NCBI RefSeq assembly: GCF_020497125.1
Contig: NC_059082.1
Span: forward strand, 65,426,948-65,490,947
Reading direction: 5' to 3'
Length of the DNA stretch: 64,000 nucleotides
From: Mauremys mutica
Taxonomy: Eukaryota; Chordata; Testudines; Geoemydidae
Each line of letters opens with the position of its first letter. The first letter of the stretch is position 1. A program made the translations under genes and the position numbers. The notes below the pieces were generated by a model. The model was not told where the DNA came from and searched no databases. It saw only the letters and a list, made by a program, of their open reading frames with translations. Shown here piece after piece: positions 12,140-63,985 of the stretch.

Positions 12140-12822
12140 TTAGGCCTGATCTACACTACATGGTTAAGTGGACACAAGACAGCTCATGTTGATCTAGCTG
12201 TGGATTTGTCTACATTTAAATTTCACTCCCACTGATGTAATTGCCTTGCTGCACTGACTTAATAATACCACCTTCCTGAGTGGCATGGAGTCAAAGTTGA
12301 TATAGTTAGGTTGACACAGTGTCAGTGTAGACACTGTGTTACTTACATCAACTGTTACTGGCCTCCAGGAGATGTCCCAGAATGCCCCTCTCTGACTGCT
12401 CTGGTCACTGTTGTGAACTGGCCAGGGGGACAGGGAACCTCCCCTCCCCTTTAAGCCCTGTAAACTTTTGAAATTCCTTTTTCTGGTTGCCCGGCTTGGC
12501 GAGTACACCTAGCAACTTTTGATTGTTGTGTTCAACTGCTGGCTACGTGCTGCAATCCTCTGCCAAAGGTTTCTGGGGAGGGCTGCCTTATTTCTTCTAC
12601 TGCAATAGGACACTTTCCCATGCCATTCAATGATTACTTCAGAAGGCACCATTGCAATACACAGCCCAGTGGCATATAGCCCCAGGCAGCATCAGAATGC
12701 CTGCAGTAGCTGTGCTCTTTCTGCCTCCATTATCCTCAAGCGTGAGATATCCACTGCCTGTGGAAAATGGTGCTACTATTCAGTTCCATTGCCCTTGTAA
12801 TAGTCCAGTGTTGGGGCCGTGC

Positions 12823-19350: not shown

Positions 19351-21461
19351 GGCCTGGTCTACACTACGCGTTTAAACCGGTTTTAGGAGCATTAAACCGA
19401 TTTAATGCCACACCCGTCCACACTAAGAGGCCCTTTATATTGGTATAAAGGGCTCTTTAAACCGGTTTCTGTACTCCTCCCTAACGAGAGGAGTAGCGCT
19501 AATATCGGTATTACCATATCGGATGAGGGTTAGTGTGGCCGCAGATCGACGGTATTGGCCTCCGGGTGGTATCCCACAGTGCACCACTGACCGCTCTGGA
19601 CAGCAATCTGAACTCGGATGCAGTGGCCAGGTAGACAGGAAAAGCCCCGCGAACTTTTGAATATTTCCTGTTTGCCCAGCGTGGAGCTCCGATCAGCACG
19701 TGTGGTGATGCAGTTAAAAATCAAAATAAAGAAAGAGCTCCCGCATGGACCATGCGGACGTGATCGCTGTAAGGGCAGGCAAATCTGTTCTATCAGCGCT
19801 CCGTTACAGAAGACGAATTAAAAAACATTTTTAAAAAATCTCCAGACAGACGCCATAGCAGGGACTCAGCGCACTGCTGCGTGACAAGCGTAACAGAAAG
19901 CCAAGGAATCAAATGGACGCTCATGGACTGGAGGACTCAAGCTATCCCACAGTTCCTGCAGACTCTCTGAAAAGCATTTGCATTCTTGGCTGAGCTCCAA
20001 ATGCTTCTAGGGTCAAACACAGTGTCCGCGGTGGGTCAGGGCATAGCTTGGCAATTTACGCACCCCCCCCCACCCACCCCCAGAAGTGAAAGGGAAAACA
20101 ATCCTCTCTTGACTCTTTTACATGTCACCCTATCTTTACTGAATGCTGCAGATAGACGCGATGCTGCAGCACTCAACACCAACATCCTTGCTCCCCCCCC
20201 GCCATGGGTGGCTGATGGTGCAAAACGACTGGTACCCATCCTCATCATCAGCCTATTGGCACATGGGGCAGTGCAAAAGGGCTGATAACCATGCTGACTA
20301 GCATCCGTCAGGTTGATCAAGGGCGCCTGGCCCTAATTTTTCCTGGTAGATGGTGCAATATGGCTGGTAACCGTCTTCATCATAGCAACAGGGGGCTGAG
20401 CTCCATCAGCCCCCACCCTTCATGTGTAAAGAAAAGATTCAGTTGCCCCTGGACTAGCAGTGGGATGCTGGGCTCCTCTCCTACACACTGCTTAATGTCC
20501 TGTCTGGACTATCATAGCAGCTGGAGGCTGCCTTCCACTCATTTCTCACTAACAAGTCACTGTGTCATCACACAAGTGGGGGGACAATGCTATGGTAGCC
20601 CAGGAAGGCTGGGGGAAGAACAGAATGAACAGGTGGGGTTGTTGCAGGAGCACCCCCTGTGAATAGCATACAGCTTATAATTTCTGCAGGATCTGACACA
20701 GAGCAGCTGTGCTCTCTGGTTCTATGATACAGTGGTTCTCTAGTACACTTGCCCATATTCTAGGCAGGACTGATTCTATTTCTAGATACCAAAAAGGAGG
20801 AATTGACTCAGGGAGTCATTCCCAATTTTGGCTTTTGCGCCCCTGGCTGATCTCAGCCAGGAGCACTTATGACAGCAGCAAATGGTGCAGTGCAAAAGGA
20901 CTGGTAGCCACGATCATCTTATTACCAATTTATGGTATGGTAGATGGTGCAATATGGCTGGTAACCATCTCTGCTATCATGCAAAAGCAAAAGCATGCTG
21001 CTGTGTAGCGCTGCTGAATCGCCTCTGTGAGCGGCATCTAGTACACATATGGTGACAGTCACAAAAGGCAAAACAGGCTCCATAATTGCCATGCTATGGC
21101 ATCTGCCAGGGCAATCCAGGGAAAAAAGGCACGAAATGCTTGTCTGCCGTTGCTTTCCCAGCGGAAGGAGTGACTGACGACATTTACCCAGAACCACCCG
21201 CGACAATGATTTTTGCCCCATCAGGCACTGGGATCTCAACCCGGAAATTCCAAGGGGCAGGGGAGGCTGCGGGAACTATGGGATAGCTATGGAATAGCTA
21301 CCCACAGTGCAATGCTCCAGAAACGACGCTAGCCTCGGACCGTGGATGCACACCACCGATTTAATGTGTTTAGTGTGGCCGCGCACACTCGATTTTATAC
21401 AATCTGTTTTGCTAAACCGGTTTATGTAAATTCGGAATAATCCCGTAGTGTAGACGTACCC
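19351..21461. mobile_element. PIF/Harbinger element B, non-autonomous
   Basis: The ends are 'ggcctggtctacactacgcg' on the left and, reverse complemented on the right, 'gggtacgtctacactacggg'. They are flanked by TGA at 19348-19350 and at 21462-21464, a TNA target duplication. The left part keeps recognisable Myb-like exon 1 wording (the start region near 19680 and 'catagcagggactcag' near 19855) but out of frame. The right part keeps 5' transposase wording. The middle (about 19833-21245) is a non-coding module of roughly 93% identity, as judged by eye over sampled lines, to 27770-29215 inside element D. It cannot encode its own transposase and would depend on one such as that of element C. Confidence 0.9.
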
Positions 21462-21841
21462 TGAAATAGCAATGGATTGAACCAGTGGAAGTCAAGTCAG
21501 CTCTAAGGCCTGGTCTACACTAGGCTTTTAAACCGATTTTAGCAGCGTTAAACCGATTTAACGCAGCACCCATCCACACTACGAGGCCCTTTATATCGAT
21601 ATAAAGGGCTCTTTAAACCGGTTTCTGTACTCCTCCCCGACAAGAGGAGTAGCGCTAATATCGGTATTACCATATCGGATTAGGGTTAGTGTGGCCGCAA
21701 ATTGACGGTATTGGCCTCCGGGCGGTATCCCACAGTGCACCACTGTGACCGCTCTGGACAGCCTTTTGAACGCGGATGAACTGGCCAGGTACACAGGAAA
21801 AGCCCCGCGAACTTTTGAAATTCATTTCCTGCTTTCCCAGC

Positions 21842-23874
21842 ATGGAGAGCTCATCAGCACAGGTGACCACGCACAGCTCATCTGCACAGATAACAATGCA
21901 GTCTCCTGAGAATCGAAAAAGAACTCCAGCGTGGACTACACGGGAGGTACTGGATCTGATCGCTATATGGGGAGAGGATTCAGTGCTAACAGAACTGCGT
22001 TCCAAAAGACGAAATGAAAAAGTATTTGAAAGAATTTCCAAGGCTATGATGGAAAAAGGCCATAGCAGGGACTCAGTGCAGTGCAGAGTGAAAGTTAAGG
22101 AGCTCAGACAAGCCTACCAGAAAACCAAAGAAGCAAACGGAAGGTCCGGTGCAGGGCCAAAAACATGCTGCTTCTACGCTGAGCTGCATGCAATTTTAGG
22201 GGGCTGCACCACAACTACCCCACCTCTGTCCGTGGATTCCGAGGTGGGGGTTGTAATCTCAGCCATGGCTGAGGATTATGCGGATGGGGAAGATTACGAT
22301 GAGGAAGGTGACGAGGACGACCTTGCAGAGAGCACACAGCACTCCGTTAGCCCCAACAGCCAGGAGCTTTTTCTGACCCAGACGGAATTACCCTCCCAGC
22401 CCTTCCAAGCAACTATCCCAGACAATGAAGCCATGGAAGGGACCTCTGGTGAGTGTACCTTTGTAAATATCAAACATTGTTTTTTAAGCAAGCGTTTTTT
22501 AATGATTGATTTGCCCTGAGGACTTGGGATGCATTCGCAGCCAGTAAAGTTACTTAGAAAAGTTTTGTTAACATGTCTGGGGATTGAGCGGAAATCCTCC
22601 AGGGACATCTCCATGAAGCGCTCCTGGAGGTACTCCAAAAGCCTTTGCAGAAGGTTTCTGGGCAAGGCAGCCTTGTTCCGTCCACCATGGTAGGACACTT
22701 TACCACGCCATGCATGTAGCAAGTAATCGGGTATCATTGCATGGCAAAGCATAGCTGTGTATGGTCCCGGTGATTGCTGGCATTCAAGAAACATCCGTTC
22801 TTTATCTCTCTGTGCTATCCTCAGCAGAGTGATATCGTTCAGGGGAACCTGGTTGAAAATCAGGAATTTAATTAAGGGGACTTAGAGATGGCCATTTTCC
22901 TACTGGGTTCGTGGAATGCAGCAGCTTAAAAAAAATTCCTTTCCTGCCCGTAGCCAAGCAGGGGGAGGGGAGGAGTGAAATACCGATGAGCTTTTTCGCG
23001 TTTGGTTAGCAGGGATCTTCCCAGCTAACAGCCACGCGATGGTGGGGGGGAAGGGGGGTGATTAGCAGTGAGCTTTCATGGTACCAGCCATGCGGTGGGG
23101 GGAGGGGTAAAGCACTGCTGAAGTCGAAAGACAGTGGCTTACCATGGCCGCATGCAAGCTGAATTCTGATGTCCGGACCTGTGTCTGTGAGATCTGTAAC
23201 ACCAGAGCCGCAGGCACTCATTATTAAGATGAAAAATGTGACCTTGTAGTGAAATCACATGTGCTATGTAAGGTGAATAGTGCTGTTCACTGTGAAAGAG
23301 TATAACCATTGTTCTGTAAAATGTATCTTTTTAAATACTTCTCTCCCTTTTTTCCCTCCCTCATGCAGCTGCAAATTTTTCAAGCCTCCCTACTCCATCC
23401 CAAAGGCAAGCTCAGATAAGGAGGAGGAAAAAGAAGACGCGAGATGAAATGTTCTCGGATATAATGGAAGTAACCCGCAAGGAAAGAGCTCATCTGAATG
23501 AGTGGAAGGAGGTGGTATCAAATTACAGGAAAGATGCCAGTGAACGTGAGGACAGGAGGGACACCCGAGATGAGAGGTGGTGGCAGGAAGATCAGCAGGA
23601 AGATCAGAGGTGGTGGCAGGAAGATCAGCGGTGGCGGGATGCAACTCTGGGGCTGCTGCGTGATCAAACTGACATGCTCCGGCGTCTGGTGGAGCTTCAG
23701 GAACGGCAGCAGGATCACAGAGTGCCGCTGCAGCCCCTGTATAACCACCCTCACTCCTCACCATGTTCCACCTCCTCCTCACCCAGACATGTAAGAACGC
23801 GTGGGGGGAGGCTCCGTGCACCTGCCCACTCCACCCCCGTGGACAGCCCAACCAGAAGGCTGTCATTACTTTGA
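21842..23874 (+). CDS. Myb/SANT-like DNA-binding protein of Harbinger C, two exons, intact
   Basis: Exon 1 is 21842-22448, ending at a 'gtgagt' donor. Exon 2 is 23369-23874, after 'ttttttccctccctcatgcag'. The joint is in phase and yields 370 codons plus a stop. Residues about 28-120 form a trihelix-type Myb/SANT domain ('TPAWTTREVLDLIAIWGED', then 'RISKAMMEKGHSRDSVQCR' and 'FYAELHAILGG'). An acidic stretch follows (about 155-180). Exon 2 opens into a basic patch (RRRKKK, about 220) that could act in nuclear import, then a repeated 'WWQEDQ' segment (about 273 and 283) and an amphipathic end 'LLRDQTDMLRRLVELQ'. In PIF/Harbinger elements this protein binds the ends and brings in the transposase. 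A polyadenylation signal AATAAA lies at 23969-23974. The splice sites are inferred from sequence only. Confidence 0.88.
22294..23145 (-). CDS. Antisense two-exon gene in the Myb-like intron of element C (candidate third Harbinger gene)
   Basis: On the minus strand a long open frame begins at 22848, directly after 'ttcctgattttcaaccag', a good 3' splice site, and stays open to 22294. The first 90 or so codons match elements D and A, with motifs 'GPYTAMLCHAMIPDYLL', 'GKVSYHGGRNKAALPRNL', 'LLEYLQERFMEMS' and 'EDFRSIP'. An ATG at 23145-23143 stands in the context 'GCGGCCATG' followed by 'GTAAGC'; splicing it to 22848 puts the start codon in frame with the conserved exon. The conserved block ends near 22575, and the frame beyond it, which overlaps the end of Myb-like exon 1 on the other strand, is not shared. 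The protein would be small, helix-rich and basic. I recognise no family. The transposase cannot easily include it as a 3' exon, because a minus-strand AATAAA (24008-24003) lies upstream of it. Confidence 0.6.
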
Positions 23875-23968
23875 ATTTTTTTTAGTGGGCTTTTCCATCC
23901 CTCCTATCCTCCTCCCAAACCACACCCGGGCTACCTTCTCAGTTCTCTCCCTCTTTTTATAATGAATT

Positions 23969-24008
23969 AATAAAGAATACATGATTTTTAAACTATAGTA
24001 ACTTTATT
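23969..24008. terminator. Convergent polyadenylation signals of element C genes
   Basis: Plus-strand AATAAA at 23969-23974 serves the Myb-like gene. TTTATT at 24003-24008, which is AATAAA on the minus strand, serves the transposase. The two transcripts therefore end facing each other within about 40 bp. Confidence 0.75.
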
Positions 24009-24269
24009 TCCATAAGCAAGCTGTAATCTAAGGGGGAGGGTGGGTTGCTTACAGGGAATGAGTCAATCGGGGGGGTGGGTGTTCATCAATAAACACAGCA
24101 GTCACACCCTACCCTGGCCAGTGATGAAGCTCGTTTTCAAAGCTTCTCTGATGCGCACCGCTTCCTGGTGTGCTCTTCTAATCTCCCTGGTGTCTGGCTG
24201 CGCGTAATCAGCGGCCAGGTGATTTGCCTCAACCTCCCACCCCGCCATAAAGGTCTCCCCCTTACTCTC

Positions 24270-25393
24270 TCAGAGATTGTGGAGAACAAAGCAAGCAGCA
24301 ATAACAAAGGAGACATTGGTTTGGCTGAGGTCTGAGCGAGTCAGTAATGTGCACCAGCGCACCTTTAAACGGCCAAAGGCACATTCTACCACCATTCTGC
24401 ACTTGCTCAGCCTGTAGTTGAACAGCTCCTGACTACTGTCCAGGCTGCCTGTGTATGGCTTCATGAGCCATGGCATCAAGGGGTAGGCTGGGTCCCCCAG
24501 GATAACTACAGGCATTTCAAGATCCCCAACTGTTATCTTCTGTTCTGGGAAGTAATTCCCTTGCTGCAGCCGTTTAAACAGAGTAGTGCTTCTGAAGACG
24601 TGAGCGTCATGAACTCTCCCTGGCCATCCCACGTGGATGTTGGTGAAACGTCCCTTGTGATCCACCAGTGCTTGCAGCACCATGGAAAAGTACCCCTTGC
24701 GGTTTACGTACTGGGTGCCCTGGTGCTCCGGTGCCAAGATAGGGATATGGGTTCCATCTATCGCCCCCCCCCACAGTTAGGGAATCCCATTGCAGCAAAG
24801 CCATCCACTATGGCCTGCACGTTTCCCAGAGTCACAACCTTTCGTAGCAGCAGCTTAATGATTGCTTTGGCTACTTGCATCACAGCAGCCCCCACAGTAG
24901 ATTTTCCAACTCCAAATTGATTCCCGACTGACCAGTAGCTGTCTGGCGTTGCAAGCTTCGAGAGGGCTATTGCCACTCGCTTCTCCACTGTGAGGGCTGC
25001 TCTCATCTTGGTATTATGGCGTTTCAGGGCAGGGGAAAGCAAGTCACAAAGTTCCATGAAAGTGCCCTTACGCATGCGAAAGTTTCGCAGCCACTGCGAA
25101 TTGTCCCACACCTGCAACACAATGCGGTCCCACCAGTCTGTGCTTGTTTCCCGGGCCCAAAATCGGCGTTCAATGGCTAGAACCTGCCCCATTACCATCA
25201 GGATCTCCAAAGCGCAGGGGCCCGCGGTTTGAGAGAATTCTGTGTCCATGTCCTCATCACTCTCATCGCTGCGCTGCCGTAGCCGCCGCCTCCTCGCCTG
25301 GCTTTGCAGGTCCTGGTTCACCATAGACTGCACGATAATGCGTGAGGTGTTTAAAACGTCCACAATTGCGGTATTGAGCTGAGCAGGGTCCAT
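24270..25393 (-). pseudogene. PIF/Harbinger transposase (DDE), element C, frameshifted
   Basis: The start at 25393 ('MDPAQLNTAIVDVL') leads into a charged stretch ('RRRRLRQRSDESDEDMD'), then 'WARETSTDWWDRIVLQVW' and a helix-turn-helix-like region ('VAIALSKLATPDSYWSVG'). The catalytic core follows: 'AIDGTHIPI' (first Asp, near 24750), 'ILGDPAYPLMPWLMKPY' (second Asp, near 24495) and 'CRMVVECAFGRLK' (Glu, near 24380), then 'CFVLHNL' and a stop. The frame breaks once, at the nine-C run 24764-24772, just before the first Asp; the number of Cs does not fit the frame. The stop at 24270 replaces the Cys that usually follows 'LHNL', and the next codons (Glu-Arg-Val-Arg-Gly) remain readable, so it is probably a recent nonsense change. 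All three acidic residues are present. In the family this enzyme cuts and joins at TNA sites. Confidence 0.88.
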
Positions 25394-25764
25394 GCTTGCC
25401 GTGCTATGGTGTCTGCACAGTTCACCCAGGAAAAAAGGCGCGAAACGGTTGTCTGCTGCTTTCACGGAGGGAGGGGTGACGCTGTACCCAGAACCACCCG
25501 CGACAATGATTTTTGCCCCATCAGGCACTGGGATCTCAGCCCAGAATTCCAAGGGGTGGGGGAGACTGCAGGAACTATGGGATAGCTTTGGGATACCTAC
25601 CCACAGTGCAACGCTCCGGAAATCGATGCTAGCCTCGGACCATGGACGCACACCGCCGAATTACTGTGCGTTGTGTGGCCACGTGCAATCGACTTTATAC
25701 AATCTGTTTTACAAAACCGGTTTATGTAAATTCGGAATAATCCCATAGTGTAGACGTACCCTTA

Positions 25765-26456: not shown

Positions 26457-27379
26457 TCAGGCCTGGTCTACACTAGGACTTTAAATCGAATTTAACAGCG
26501 TTAATTTGAATTAACCGCTCAACCGTCCACACCAGGAAGCCGTTTAATTCGACCTAGAGGGCTCTTTAGTTCAAATTCGGTACTCCACCCCGACGAGGGG
26601 AGTAGCGCTAAATTCGACATGGCTATCTCGAATTAGGCTAGGTGTGGATGCAAATCAAACTTACTAGCTCCGGGAGCTATCCCACACTGCACCACTCTGT
26701 TGACGCTCTGGACAGCAGTCCGAGCTTGGATGCTCTGACCAGCCACACAGGAAAAGTCCCGGGAAAATTTGAATTCCTTTTCCTGTCTGGACAGTTAGAA
26801 TCTCATTTCGTGGTTGGACATCGGGGCGAGCTCAGCAGCACCGGCGGCAATGCAGAGCTCACCAGCAGAGGAGTTCATGTAATCTCTGAATAGAAAGAGG
26901 GACCCAGCATAGACTGACCGGGAACTCTTGGATCTGATCGGTGTGTGGGGCGAGGAGTCTGTGCTTTCGGAGCTGTGCTCCAAAAAACGGAATGCAAAGA
27001 CCTACGAGAAGGTCTCCAAAGCCATGAGAGACAGAGGATACAGCCGGGATGCCACACAGCGCCGTGTGAAAATCAAGGACCCCAGACAAGGCTACCAAAA
27101 AATCAAAGCGGCAAACGGACGCTACGGAGCCTGCCACCACTGCCCCACCAGCGACCATGGACTCTGACGATGGGACAGTGTCAACGGCCAGTTCCTCGGC
27201 GATGTTCGCGGACGGGGAAGATGAGGAAGGGTTTGTGGAGGACGAGGCAGGCGACAGCACTTACAACGCTGGTTTCCCCGACAGCCAGGATCTCTTCATC
27301 ACCGTCACGGAGATCCCCTAACCGTCCCCGGCCATTAACCCGGACCCTGAATCAGGGGAAGGATCACTCGGTAAGTGCT

Positions 27380-27721
27380 TTAACCATGTAAACTTTTATT
27401 CTTAATATAACAGGAATCTGAAGTATGTGAAAAGGAGGTCTCTCTATATATGGGGATAGAACAGAAATCCTCCTGGGAGATCTCCACGAAGCTCTCCTGG
27501 AGGTAATCGAAAAGCCTCCGCAGGAGGTTCCTGGGGAGAGCTGCCTTATTGGGTGCTCCGTGGCAGCACACTTTTCCGCGCGAGGCTTTCATGAGGTACT
27601 CAGGGAGCATTGCCTCCCCGAGCACGGCTGCATAGGGCCCTGGTTTGTGCTGGCTTTCACGCAGCATGCGCTCTCTATCTCCTTCAGTGACCGTCCTCAG
27701 GGTGATCTCGCTCGGAGAGTC
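27380..27721 (-). CDS. Antisense conserved exon in the Myb-like intron of element D (candidate third Harbinger gene)
   Basis: A minus-strand frame opens at 27721 after 'cctaattagatgcag' (3' splice site) and runs uninterrupted to the stop at 27380. Motifs 'KPGPYAAVLGEAMLPEYLM', 'NKAALPRNLLRRLFDYLQ' and 'EISQEDFCSIP' align with element C at roughly 60% identity over 78 residues by hand count. Many of the differences are conservative (Asp/Glu, Lys/Arg, Ile/Leu, Met/Val). A minus-strand AATAAA at 27400-27395 overlaps the end of the frame. No upstream 'GCCATG|GT' exon was found; that region was probably displaced by the B-like insertion. Neither the product nor its role is recognised. Confidence 0.6.
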   Translation of the reverse strand, partial: DSPSEITLRTVTEGDRERMLRESQHKPGPYAAVLGEAMLPEYLMKASRGKVCCHGAPNKAALPRNLLRRLFDYLQESFVEISQEDFCSIPIYRETSFSHTSDSCYIKNKSLHG

Positions 27722-27756
27722 CTGCATCTAATTAGGGGAATTACTGTAATGTTACG

Positions 27757-29240
27757 CCTGGTCCAGAGTATTTTTCAAAAATCTCCGGACAGACGGCATA
27801 GCACAGACTCAGCACGCTGCTGCGTGACGAGCGTAACGGAAAGCCAAAGAATCGAATGGACGCTTATGGAGGGAGGGGGGACTGAGGACGCAAGGTATCC
27901 CACAGTTCCTGCTGTCTCCGAAAAGCATTTGCATTCTTGGCTGAGCTCCAAATGCTTCTAGGGTCAAACACAGTGTCCGCGGTGGGTCAGGGCATAGCTC
28001 GGCAATTTACACACCCCCAGAAGTGAAAGGGAAAACAATCCTCTCTTGACTCTTTTACATGTCACCGTATCTTTACTGAATGCTGAAGATAGATGCGATG
28101 GTGCAGCACTGAACACCGACATCCTTGCTCCGCCCCCCCGCCATGGGTGGCTGATGGTGCAGTAAGACTGATACCCATCGTCATCATCAGCCTATTGGCA
28201 CATGGGGCAGTGCAAAAGGACTGGTAACCATGCGTACTAGCATCAGTGAGGTCGATCAAGGGCGCCTGGCCCTAATTTTTCCTGGTAGATGGTGCAGTAT
28301 GGCTGGTAACCGTCCTCATCATAGCAACAGGGGGCTGAGCTTCATCAGCCCCCACCCTTCATGTGTAAAGAAAAGATTCAATTGCCCCTGGACTAGCAGC
28401 AGGATGCTGGGCTCCTCTCCTCCACACTCCTTAATGTCCTATCTGGACTATCATAGCAACTGGAGGCTGCCTTCCACTCATTTCTCACTAACAAGTCACT
28501 GTGTCTTATTCCTGCATTCTTTATTACTTCATCACACAAGTGGGGGGACAATGCTATGGTAGCCCAGGAAGGCTGGGGAAGAATGGGATGAACAGGTGGG
28601 GTTGTTGCAGGAGCACCCCCTGTGAACAGCATACAGCTCATAATCTATGCAGGATCTGACACAGAGCAGCTGTGCTCTCTGGTTCTCTGATACAGTGGTT
28701 CTGTAGTACACTTACCCATATTCTAGGCAGGACTGATTCTATTTTTAGATACCAAAAAGGAGGGATTGACTCAGGGAGTCATTCCCAATTTTGGCTTTTG
28801 CGCCCCTGGCTAAGAGCAGCCAGGGGCACTTATGACAGCAGCAAATGGTGCAGTGCAAAAGGACTGGTAACCATGCCCATCTTATTACCAATTTATAGTA
28901 TGGTAGATGGTACAGTATGGCTGGTAACCATCTCTGCTGTCATGCAAAAGCAAAAGCATGCTGCTGTGTAGCGCTGCTGGACCGCCTCTGTCAGCGGCAT
29001 CTAGTACACATACGGTGACAGTCACAAAAGGCAAAATAGGCTCCATGGTTTCCACGCTGTGGCGTCTGCCAGGGCAATCCAGGGAAAACGGGCTTGAAAC
29101 GATTGTCTGCTGTAGCTTTCCCGGAGGAAGGGATGACTGACGACATTTACCCAGAACCACCCGCGAAAATGGTTTTTGCCCCATCAGGCACTGGGATCTC
29201 AACCCAGAATTCACAGAGACAGACTACACTGTGTTCATTG
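27757..29240. mobile_element. B-like Harbinger module nested in element D
   Basis: From about 27770 to 29215 the sequence is nearly the same as the middle of element B (19833-21245). It includes the recurring 'tggtgcagtatggctggtaac' wording and the segment at 28261-28400. A decayed left terminus may be 'cgcctggtccagagta' at 27757-27772, which agrees with the canonical 'ggcctggtctacacta' at 12 of 16 bases; the right terminus is not clear. D keeps about 25 bases (28506-28530) that B lacks. Confidence 0.7.
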
Positions 29241-29763
29241 TTCGCAAAAATTTATCTTTGCAAGGAATTCACTCCCTTTTTCACATCACACAGCTTCGAC
29301 TGTCTCCAGACCTGCCACAGCATCCCCCTCACAGAGGCTGGCAAAGATTAGGCGGCGAAAGAAAAAGACAGGGGACGAGATGTTCGCTGAAGTTATGGGG
29401 TGCTCCCAAGACGAGGCGGACCAGCAGATCCAGTGGAGGGAGACCCTCTCTCTGTACCAGCGCTCACACAGCGAACGGGAGGAGAGGTGGCGTGAGGAAG
29501 ACAAGCAGTCGATTCAAACGCTGCTTGGACTAATGAGGGAGCAAACGGACATGCTCCTGCGCCTTGTGCATGTTCTGCAGGACCTCAGGCAGGAGGACAG
29601 AGCCCCCCTGCAGTGTATCTGCAACCGCCCTCCCCCGCCACAAAGTCCCATACCCCCCTCACCCAAAATAACCAGAAGGAGGGGCGCCAGAGGCCGTGTA
29701 AACTGTCACTGCACCCCAGCAGAGTGCTCAAGTACCGAAAAGCTCTCATACCCTAAATTTTGA

Positions 29764-30490
29764 GAAGTCCTTTCCTTCCCGCCTCACCCAAGCCCCCATC
29801 CCAGTTTCATCCCCTAACTGTCTAGTTGATAATAAAAAATACTTTTCTGTTAATTACTTTTTCCGTCATGTTCTTTTAGAGGAGACTGTGTTTGAAGGGG
29901 GGGAAGGGGGTTGGTAATTTGACAGGACAATCACCTTTACCAGGGTACAGACATGGGGGCAGGATCAGCAGCAGGTCACACACACACTGCAGTCAGTACG
30001 CACCCTGGTTGGTATGGGAGGTGGTTTGCAGGTTCTGTGTGGGTGGGGGGGTACGTGACTTTGTAGCGGGGGAGGGGGGTTACAGATCTCATGCAACGGT
30101 CCCTGTCCTGGACCACAGAGCCACGCAGCAGAGGAATCTGTATCCATCCTCCCCCGCCAAAAGGCCACATAGCCCCCGCACACAGAGTCCCAAAAAGGAA
30201 GGATGGCAGGCTCCGTTGAAACATCCAGTCTGGCACTGCAGACCGCTCTGGGAGCAGGAGCCTGTCATTCCTCGAGTTTACAGGCGGTCTTTACATCACC
30301 GCACACCCTACCCAGCACAGTCCGTGTCCCAGTTTCAACCCTGTAACGCAAAGTCATCAATAAAGAAACCTTTGTAAAGTTACAGTGGAACATGTATTTT
30401 ATTTTTAAACGTGTGTTGGAAGTTGGGGAAGCCGGGTGGGCGGGGTATGTAACTGCAGATGCTAGTCAACAGTCACTTTGTAAAGAAACA
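29764..30490. other. 3' region of the D Myb-like gene with a second tail-like copy
   Basis: After the stop at 29763 and AATAAA at 29831-29836 there is a second stretch (about 30090-30370). It resembles the Pro-rich end of exon 2 ('SPAKRPHSPRTQSPKKEG' against 'PQSPIPPSPKITRRRG') and is followed by another AATAAA at 30359-30364. A minus-strand AATAAA at 30403-30398 would serve the transposase. This looks like a duplicated or alternative 3' end. Confidence 0.45.
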
Positions 30491-30499
30491 GGGGCAGGT

Positions 30500-30930
30500 T
30501 CAGCTTCTCTGTAAAGAAACTGAACAGTCACAGGTCACGCTGCTCACTGCTCGCTGGGACTTGAAGAGTTCCTTGTCGCTGTGCAAGGCGTCTGCACAGA
30601 GCTTCACGAGCCAGGGCATTAGCGGGTAGGCTGGGTCCCCGATGATCACTGTAGGCATCTGCACATCCCCAAGACTTATTTTGTGGTCCGGGAAGAAACT
30701 ACCTTCCTGCAGGCGTCTAAACAGACCAGAGTTCCTGAAAACACGCACGTCATGAACTTTGCCTGGCCACCCGACGTTGATGTTGGTAAAACGTCCCCCA
30801 TGGTCCACCAGTGCTCGCAGCACCATTGAAAAGTAGCCCGATTTCTCAGCAGCTGACTGTGGAAGAGGTGGACGATAAGGTGCGAGGAGTTGACAACGGC
30901 CATAACTGCAGCGGGATCCGTGCTCGCAGT
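30500..30930 (-). pseudogene. PIF/Harbinger transposase fragment, element D
   Basis: The N-terminal remnant ('DPAAVMAVVNSS', near 30915) has ACG where the start codon should be. It is joined out of frame, near 30840, to the catalytic part 'GYFSMVLRALVDHGGRFTN'. 'IIGDPAYPLMPWLVKL' carries the second Asp. The segment with the first Asp ('IDGTHIP' type) is deleted at the joint, and the frame is cut off after 'DKELFKSQ', before the region with the catalytic Glu. Two of the three catalytic residues are therefore missing and the fragment cannot be active. Confidence 0.85.
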
Positions 30931-31306
30931 GCTGTGGTGCCCGCGCTGTCACTGAGCAGAAAAGTGCACGAACAGATTGCCCGCAGGCGCTTTCAGGGAG
31001 GGAGGGAGGGCGTGATTGACGGTTCAATGATGACAGTTACCCAAAACCACCCTCGACACATTTTTCCCCCCAGCAGGCATTGGGGGCTCTACCCAGCATT
31101 CCAATGGGCAGCGGGGAGTGCGGGAACTGTGGGATAGCTTCCCACAGTGCACCGCTTCCAAAGTCGACGCTGGCCCCGTTACTGTGGACTTAGACAGTCG
31201 AATTAGTGTATTTAGTGTGGATACACAAATTCGACTTCATAAGGTCGATTCCACAAATTCGAATTAAGTAGATTCGAAATAGTCTTGTAGTGTAGACGTA
31301 CCCTCA

Positions 31307-63196: not shown

Positions 63197-63985
63197 TCAG
63201 GGAGGATGAGGCCCTGTTCCAGCAGCTGAGGTGTGAAAACCAAGGGAGGAGAAACTGGTTTTGTAATTGGCAAGCCATTCACAGTCTTTGTTTAGTCCTG
63301 AGCTGATGGTGTTAAATTTGCAGATGAACTGGAGCTCAGCAGTTTCTCTTTGAAGTCTGGTCCTAAAGTTTTCTTGCTGTAGGATGGCCACCTTAAAATC
63401 TGCTATTGTGTGGCCAGGGAGGCTGAAGTGTTCTCCTACAGGTTTTTGTATATTGCCATTCCTAATGTCTGATTTGTGTCCATTTATCCTTTTCCTTAGA
63501 GACTGTCCAGTTTGGCCGATGTACATAGCAGAGGGGCATTGCTGGCATATGATGGCATATATTACATTGGTGGACGTGCAGGTGAATGAACAGGTGATGG
63601 TGTGGCTGATCTGGTTAGGTCCTGTGATGGTGTTGCTGGTGTAGATATGTGGGCAGAGTTGGCATCGAGGTTTGTTGCATGGGTTGGTTCCTGAGCTAGA
63701 GTTACTATGGTGCGGTGTGCAGTTGCTGGTGAGAATATGCTTCAGGTTGGCAGGTTGTCTGTGGGCGAGGACTGGCCTGCCACCCAAGGCCTGTGAAACT
63801 GTGGGATCATTGTCCAGGATGGGTTGTAGATCCCTGATGATGCGTTGGAGGGGTTTGAGCTGGGGACTGTATGTGATGGTCAGTGGAGTCCTGTTGTCCT
63901 GTTCTCTACTCAGACCCTATGTTCCCAGCAGTTCTCTAGCAGTTTATGAAGTCTTTCAAATTTATTTGAAGTAGTTAAAAAAAAA
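63197..63985 (-). pseudogene. Penelope-like polyprotein C-terminal part with GIY-YIG endonuclease
   Basis: The frame reads from about 63925 down to 63197. It shows the end of the reverse-transcriptase region ('TPLTITYSPQLKPLQRII', 'ILDNDPTVSQALGGRPVLA'), a Cys-rich linker ('NPCNKPRCQLCPHIY') and the GIY-YIG nuclease with 'VIYAIICQQC', 'AMYIGQTGQSLRKRINGHK' and 'HFSLPGHTIADF'. In Penelope elements this nuclease nicks target DNA and the reverse transcriptase primes from it. Further upstream 'KFERLHKLLENCWEHR' sits in another frame and ends in a stop near 63915, so the copy is defective. The window ends before the main polymerase motifs. Confidence 0.88.

Follow-up and report, generated by a model that had tools for sequence, protein, structure and literature searches.

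A predicted antisense third gene, putatively encoding a BEN-like regulator, nested in the Myb-like gene of turtle PIF/Harbinger transposons

PIF/Harbinger elements have been described as carrying two genes, for a transposase and a Myb/SANT protein (accessible part of the PHIS survey, PMC4482050). The turtle elements considered here share with that described group the DDE transposase, the Myb/SANT gene, inverted ends starting with G and, apparently, a 3-base flanking duplication. Unlike it, they appear to carry a third gene, antisense, nested in an intron and predicted to encode a BEN-like protein; their flanks appear to be TNA, not strictly TWA. Extra genes are known from TET-bearing Harbinger families of rust fungi, and from HarbingerS with SET (available sections of PMC12730594). 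Here too a Harbinger-type transposon is combined with a chromatin-related gene. However, those genes encode enzymes and occur in fungi and oomycetes, with Myb/SANT missing from the fungal families, whereas the turtle element is from an animal and its predicted domain is non-enzymatic and nested in the Myb intron. Our search of the open literature found no report of a BEN-like, antisense or extra third gene in Harbinger elements or turtles. A fish survey (PMC9179366) makes no mention of 'third', 'additional ORF' or 'additional gene'.

The window, meaning the whole stretch of DNA analysed, is 64,000 nucleotides of the Mauremys mutica genome. Element C, within it, has these parts:
21507-25761: element C, end to end, with flanks TAA and TTA
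21842-22448, plus strand: exon 1 of the Myb-like gene, with the Myb/SANT domain (Pfam Myb_DNA-bind_4, E 1.3e-19)
23369-23874, plus strand: exon 2 of the Myb-like gene, borders read by eye
24270-25393, minus strand: transposase, two overlapping frames, broken in the C copy (DDE_Tnp_4, E 1.9e-35)

The termini of element C are GGCCTGGTCTACACTA and GGGTACGTCTACACTA; across 65 query bases, a few of them from the flank, the two ends are 69% alike. C has the DDE_Tnp_4-type transposase, Myb/SANT second gene and terminal inverted repeats of a PIF/Harbinger element. The Myb intron lies between a donor after 22448 and an acceptor before 23369, both read by eye, and the transposase start was set from the match to the public gene model P0001. 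A DDE_Tnp_4 match is also found in element A (E 2.1e-23), and a Pfam Myb/SANT domain in element D (26460-31303; E 2.5e-11). The 3-base flanks are TCA on both sides of D, TGA on both sides of element B, and TAA and TTA at C; among 29 end matches, the left flank has the TNA form in 19 and the TWA form in 11. Element B (19351-21461) is a 2.1-kb relative with ends as in C, in which neither a Myb nor a transposase gene was noticed. In its left end region, C contains a perfect 24-base palindrome (21586-21609), where a dimeric DNA-binding protein might bind. D has no such palindrome of at least 14 bases. Elsewhere in the window, a 239-codon open frame (63197-63916, minus strand) presumably resembles the GIY-YIG region of a Penelope-like retroelement.

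A first-pass annotation of this DNA had pointed to a long open frame inside the Myb intron, on the opposite strand and behind a good 3' splice site, as a third gene. The frame is indeed present: it is open from 22881 to 22294 (minus strand, 195 codons) and starts within the intron. Its 3' end had been placed too far downstream. In the window copy, a small frame change is found just upstream of the family stop (about 22556-22554). The codons that follow, down to 22294 and partly antisense to Myb exon 1, therefore fall outside the conserved coding part. Since most copies end at the family stop, we rejected the full 195-codon frame as the gene. The conserved block is 93 codons, running from 22848. 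The predicted gene and the related blocks, all on the minus strand, are as follows. Note that copies L090-L092 are P5-type, and L093-L095 are P7-type.
23143-23337: predicted exon 1, ending GCC ATG; conserved in copies and in L091 and L092
22849-23142: predicted intron, GTAAGCC...TTTTCAACCAG; C and P5-type copies not alignable here
22554-22848: exon 2 of the third gene, coding for the predicted BEN-like protein, with the conserved block at 22848-22570
22498-22503: ATTAAA, a candidate poly(A) signal downstream of the stop, shared with L090-L092
27440-27727: corresponding block in element D
12536-12751: decayed block in element A, with one internal stop

Splicing is predicted to join ATG|GT (23143) to AG|GT (22848). 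The donor reads GCCATG|GTAAGCC (23143/23142) and the 3' splice site, which the first-pass annotation had judged good, reads TTTTCAACCAG|GT (22849/22848). The splice cores, GCCATGGTAAG and CAACCAGGT, are each kept in 26 of 29 copies of C. The predicted start codon (23145-23143) is at the end of exon 1; the upstream limit of this exon, a TATTTAAA-like box at about 23337-23330, is a chosen bound rather than a transcription start. L091 and L092 align with C over 251 and 263 columns, both ending in GCCATGGTAAGCCA. The intron is then unaligned, and alignment restarts at TTTCAACCAG in L092, or 25 bases earlier in L091, and continues through the coding block. In P5-type copies, and in L060 of another subfamily, an ATG lies right after the start of exon 2 (VTMNDIT, or VSMN in L090). 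C-type copies have VTLNDIT or VPLNDIT instead and, lacking an exon-2 ATG, would depend on that of exon 1. Element D has an ATG inside the block, without the exon-1 splice. The predicted C-type protein is M plus 97 residues, with the C-terminus VNKLF in most copies.

These exon borders bear on a different arrangement, in which the block serves the transposase transcript as an alternative last exon. The product, a transposase N-terminus followed by a BEN-like domain, could be a poison inhibitor. Four public gene models (P0001, P0005, P0013, and P0015) do join the transposase N-terminus, in phase, to the exon. However, they exit the transposase at four different places (24821, 25112, 25184, and 25298 in C coordinates), which is gene-finder-like, and conservation is seen for ATG|GTAAG at the end of exon 1. 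We regard such a fusion as improbable.

The block matches D at 27712-27452 (60% over 87 codons, E 5e-32) and A at 12751-12536 (43% over 72 codons, E 2e-14), bearing out an earlier remark that about 90 codons are common to D and, in part, A. In a blastn comparison of C with D (E up to 1e-3), it was the sole match inside the C Myb intron. Copies were sought in the window's own genome (2.48 Gb). Of 16,494 candidates from a protein search, 150 were scored; all 150 matched and 142 were without a stop. Lists ranked by protein similarity are biased to open frames and were left out of our neutral test. Hence, copies for that test were chosen by Myb exon-1 DNA, where scoring covered 40 of 3,193 candidates and 30 loci were retrieved. 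Dropping L060 left 29 copies, window copy included. The block is intact in 18, has an indel or truncation in seven (one by a 3-base deletion), and has a stop in four.

The position of the block was constant. In all 56 loci showing both Myb exons (from overlapping sets), it is antisense and between them. Both exons were in the fetched stretch for 28 of 30 C-block loci and 27 of 30 Myb exon-1 loci, two sets that overlap, and for 1 of 20 D-block loci. Exon 1 alone was present in 19 D and three C loci, and exon 2 alone in one C locus; in each, the block had the antisense orientation and lay on the side expected. A block match was missing at one locus, and a Myb match at three short P5-type loci.

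Among public proteins, named relatives come from turtles only (Pangshura, Malaclemys, Chelonia, and Lepidochelys), alongside five nameless entries. Thus, of the turtle, crocodile and bird relatives that the first-pass annotation had proposed seeking, only the first appeared by name, in a search that requires shared 5-residue words and a length window and that crocodile, bird or fish relatives could escape. P0003, a Chelonia mydas gene model called "Merlin", opens with the block (MVTINDITLL...) and continues with FERM domains, a possible exon capture or annotation error. In P0004, also a Chelonia model, residues 10-43, at the N-terminus, resemble the second half of the D block, and this model may join parts of two copies.

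If the frame were random, or the block an unrelated insertion free of coding selection, dN/dS should be near 1. Between families it is below 1, and sequence comparison indicates that the third frame is under purifying selection there. In a six-frame control, C versus D, minus frame 0 alone was both open in the two elements and below 1 (0.24, Fisher p 9e-7). The other five gave 1.49, 2.94, 1.05, 0.26, and 2.04; the frame at 0.26, whose third positions are also those of the coding frame, is interrupted twice by stops in each element. Block values for C-D were 0.24-0.28 (p 8e-7 to 4e-6). Against P5-type L090-L092, C gave 0.21-0.34 and D 0.32-0.41; against P7-type L093-L095, C gave 0.14-0.31, D 0.20-0.32, and L092 0.27-0.34. 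With L096 left out of these estimates, the range between families, element A excluded, is 0.14-0.41. Pairs with the decayed element A ranged from 0.30 to 0.67, with D-A (0.64) and L093-A (0.67) non-significant. Values for Myb and transposase, taken from pieces of these elements, are comparable, at 0.22-0.46: Myb C-D gave 0.24, 0.37, and 0.27, and transposase gave 0.22, 0.27, and 0.33 for C-A and 0.35 and 0.46 for C-D. Myb exon 2 C-A gave 0.55 (p 0.08), and three short matches mostly or wholly upstream of start codons gave 0.70-1.42.

Within families, the signal fades. P7-type copies gave 0.40-0.45 among themselves, and P5-type copies 0.64-0.88, indistinguishable from neutral. Private changes in the 29 copies comprise 41 replacing, two stop and 17 silent. 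The silent share, 28%, equals the 28% expected from a simple no-selection model (binomial p 1.0); thus, single copies look neutral after insertion. A McDonald–Kreitman-like comparison reached significance with C-L092 (p 0.03). It did not with C-D (p 0.12), a pair whose silent sites are close to saturated. For scale, dS is about 0.5 between C and L091 or L092.

Could the block be regulatory DNA that encodes nothing, or a frame that is open by chance? The 11 of 29 C copies with an indel, truncation or stop, and the near-neutral P5-type values, would suit this. Against it, C-D differences by codon position are 20/13/41, all frames but one have stops or ratios not below 1, and the protein is conserved across families whose silent sites are near saturation. 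Frame-specific selection between C and D therefore largely refutes a non-coding block, which we consider very improbable. Conversely, purifying selection on par with that on the two known genes, near-neutral private changes, conserved exon borders and a constant nested place all support what the first-pass annotation had proposed. We conclude that these PIF/Harbinger elements very likely contain a third coding gene, nested and antisense.

The first-pass annotation had left the domain unrecognised. A predicted model now matches the BEN fold, and the Pfam BEN family gives a score under its cut-off. Briefly, C copies alone reached 13.2-13.5 bits, below the gathering score of 23.2, with no match for D and other subfamilies. 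Hence, the protein is not filed as a Pfam BEN member. Searching solved structures with the block sequence, or with the block profile, returned no BEN entry. Two profile comparisons to BEN gave probabilities of 1.1% and 12.6%; in the second, the collinear match to host BEN domains was equalled by one of 150 shuffles. A structure model from 17 sequences had a pLDDT of 39.9. From 23 more diverse sequences, the best model reached 79.8, with five helices, and the other four were poorer (54.6-66.5). Structure comparison of the best model placed BEN domains at ranks 1-7, with 11-16% identity to BEN domains of known structure. With Foldseek alone, the likeness to BEN was not significant; a viral structure library gave nothing significant, with a squirrelpox BEN protein at rank 20. 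We conclude, from this modelling, that the protein of about 98 residues probably adopts a five-helix BEN-like fold.

The predicted domain can be set beside described BEN domains. Like those of BEND3, BANP, and NACC1 (accessible text of PMC11472053 and PMC10206803), it has five helices, and S and K in the helix 3-4 loop; S52 and K59 have the spacing of BANP S271 and K278. This loop, VSYHGGRNKAALP, is the best-conserved part (values from 15 of 23 rows of structure alignment A5, in which L096 was kept). Unlike in those domains, helix 5 differs between families, with no basic residues conserved across them. In solved BEN domains, helix 5 reads the bases, while helix 2 and the helix 3-4 loop hold the backbone (PMC11472053, in the part available). 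Hence, the variation in helix 5 would fit each family binding its own sites. The C protein is basic (pI 9.4), and P0008 (6.3) and L094 (5.5) are acidic with few basic residues in helix 5, which weakens the case for DNA binding in those families. Like the BEN-solo proteins Insv, Elba1, Elba2, BEND5, and BEND6 (PMC6911014, accessible portion), the protein is predicted to be a single BEN-like fold; no other Pfam family was found in L058, for which start and splicing are predicted. Unlike them, its gene is in a transposon, it has no significant sequence match, and DNA binding is putative.

What might such a protein do? In Drosophila, one-domain BEN proteins function in repression and insulation, and their homodimers bind palindromic sites (as the available text of PMC6911014 describes). 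By analogy with the action of one-domain BEN proteins at host genes, the turtle protein would bind sites in the element, whether in its ends or its promoters, and would hold down or time Myb and transposase transcription. Because the third gene would be transcribed against the Myb gene, its transcription would by itself disfavour Myb mRNA, making a simple feedback switch. Given the predicted BEN-like domain and the Drosophila precedents, we tentatively rate self-regulation the most likely role, and give its negative form somewhat less than an even chance. An accessory role in transposition is the main rival. Here the protein would not repress; instead, it would be a third component at work in transposition or in evading silencing. 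It would aid assembly of transposase and Myb protein on the ends, or bind unmethylated CpG-rich sites like BANP and BEND3. Divergence of the block between C and D is much like that of Myb and transposase (dS 1.0 versus 0.8-1.6), one BEND3 BEN domain has been solved bound to a partner protein (5jno), and some family members are acidic. However, mobilisation of PIF/Harbinger elements reportedly depends on two of their proteins, ORF1 and transposase (accessible part of PMC2836001), so a third part would be dispensable elsewhere. We consider this role rather unlikely.

Returning to self-regulation, the whole account is that a third antisense frame encodes, from two exons, a BEN-like protein of about 98 residues that serves as the element's own DNA- or chromatin-binding regulator. 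We judge it evenly poised between right and wrong. To our knowledge, self-limitation of eukaryotic DNA transposons is largely an open question. Harbinger self-regulation becomes directly testable with a frame that is under selection, encoded by the element, antisense in the Myb gene and predicted to give the fold of a chromatin regulator. Somewhat more speculatively, an animal PIF/Harbinger lineage may have a three-gene circuit, in which an antisense one-domain BEN-fold protein binds element DNA and switches between expression and silencing. If so, it would be the first known case of a BEN protein in a DNA transposon, and nesting would make Myb and BEN transcription mutually exclusive. The block would also be a source for BEN-like host genes; the Chelonia Merlin model already begins with it.
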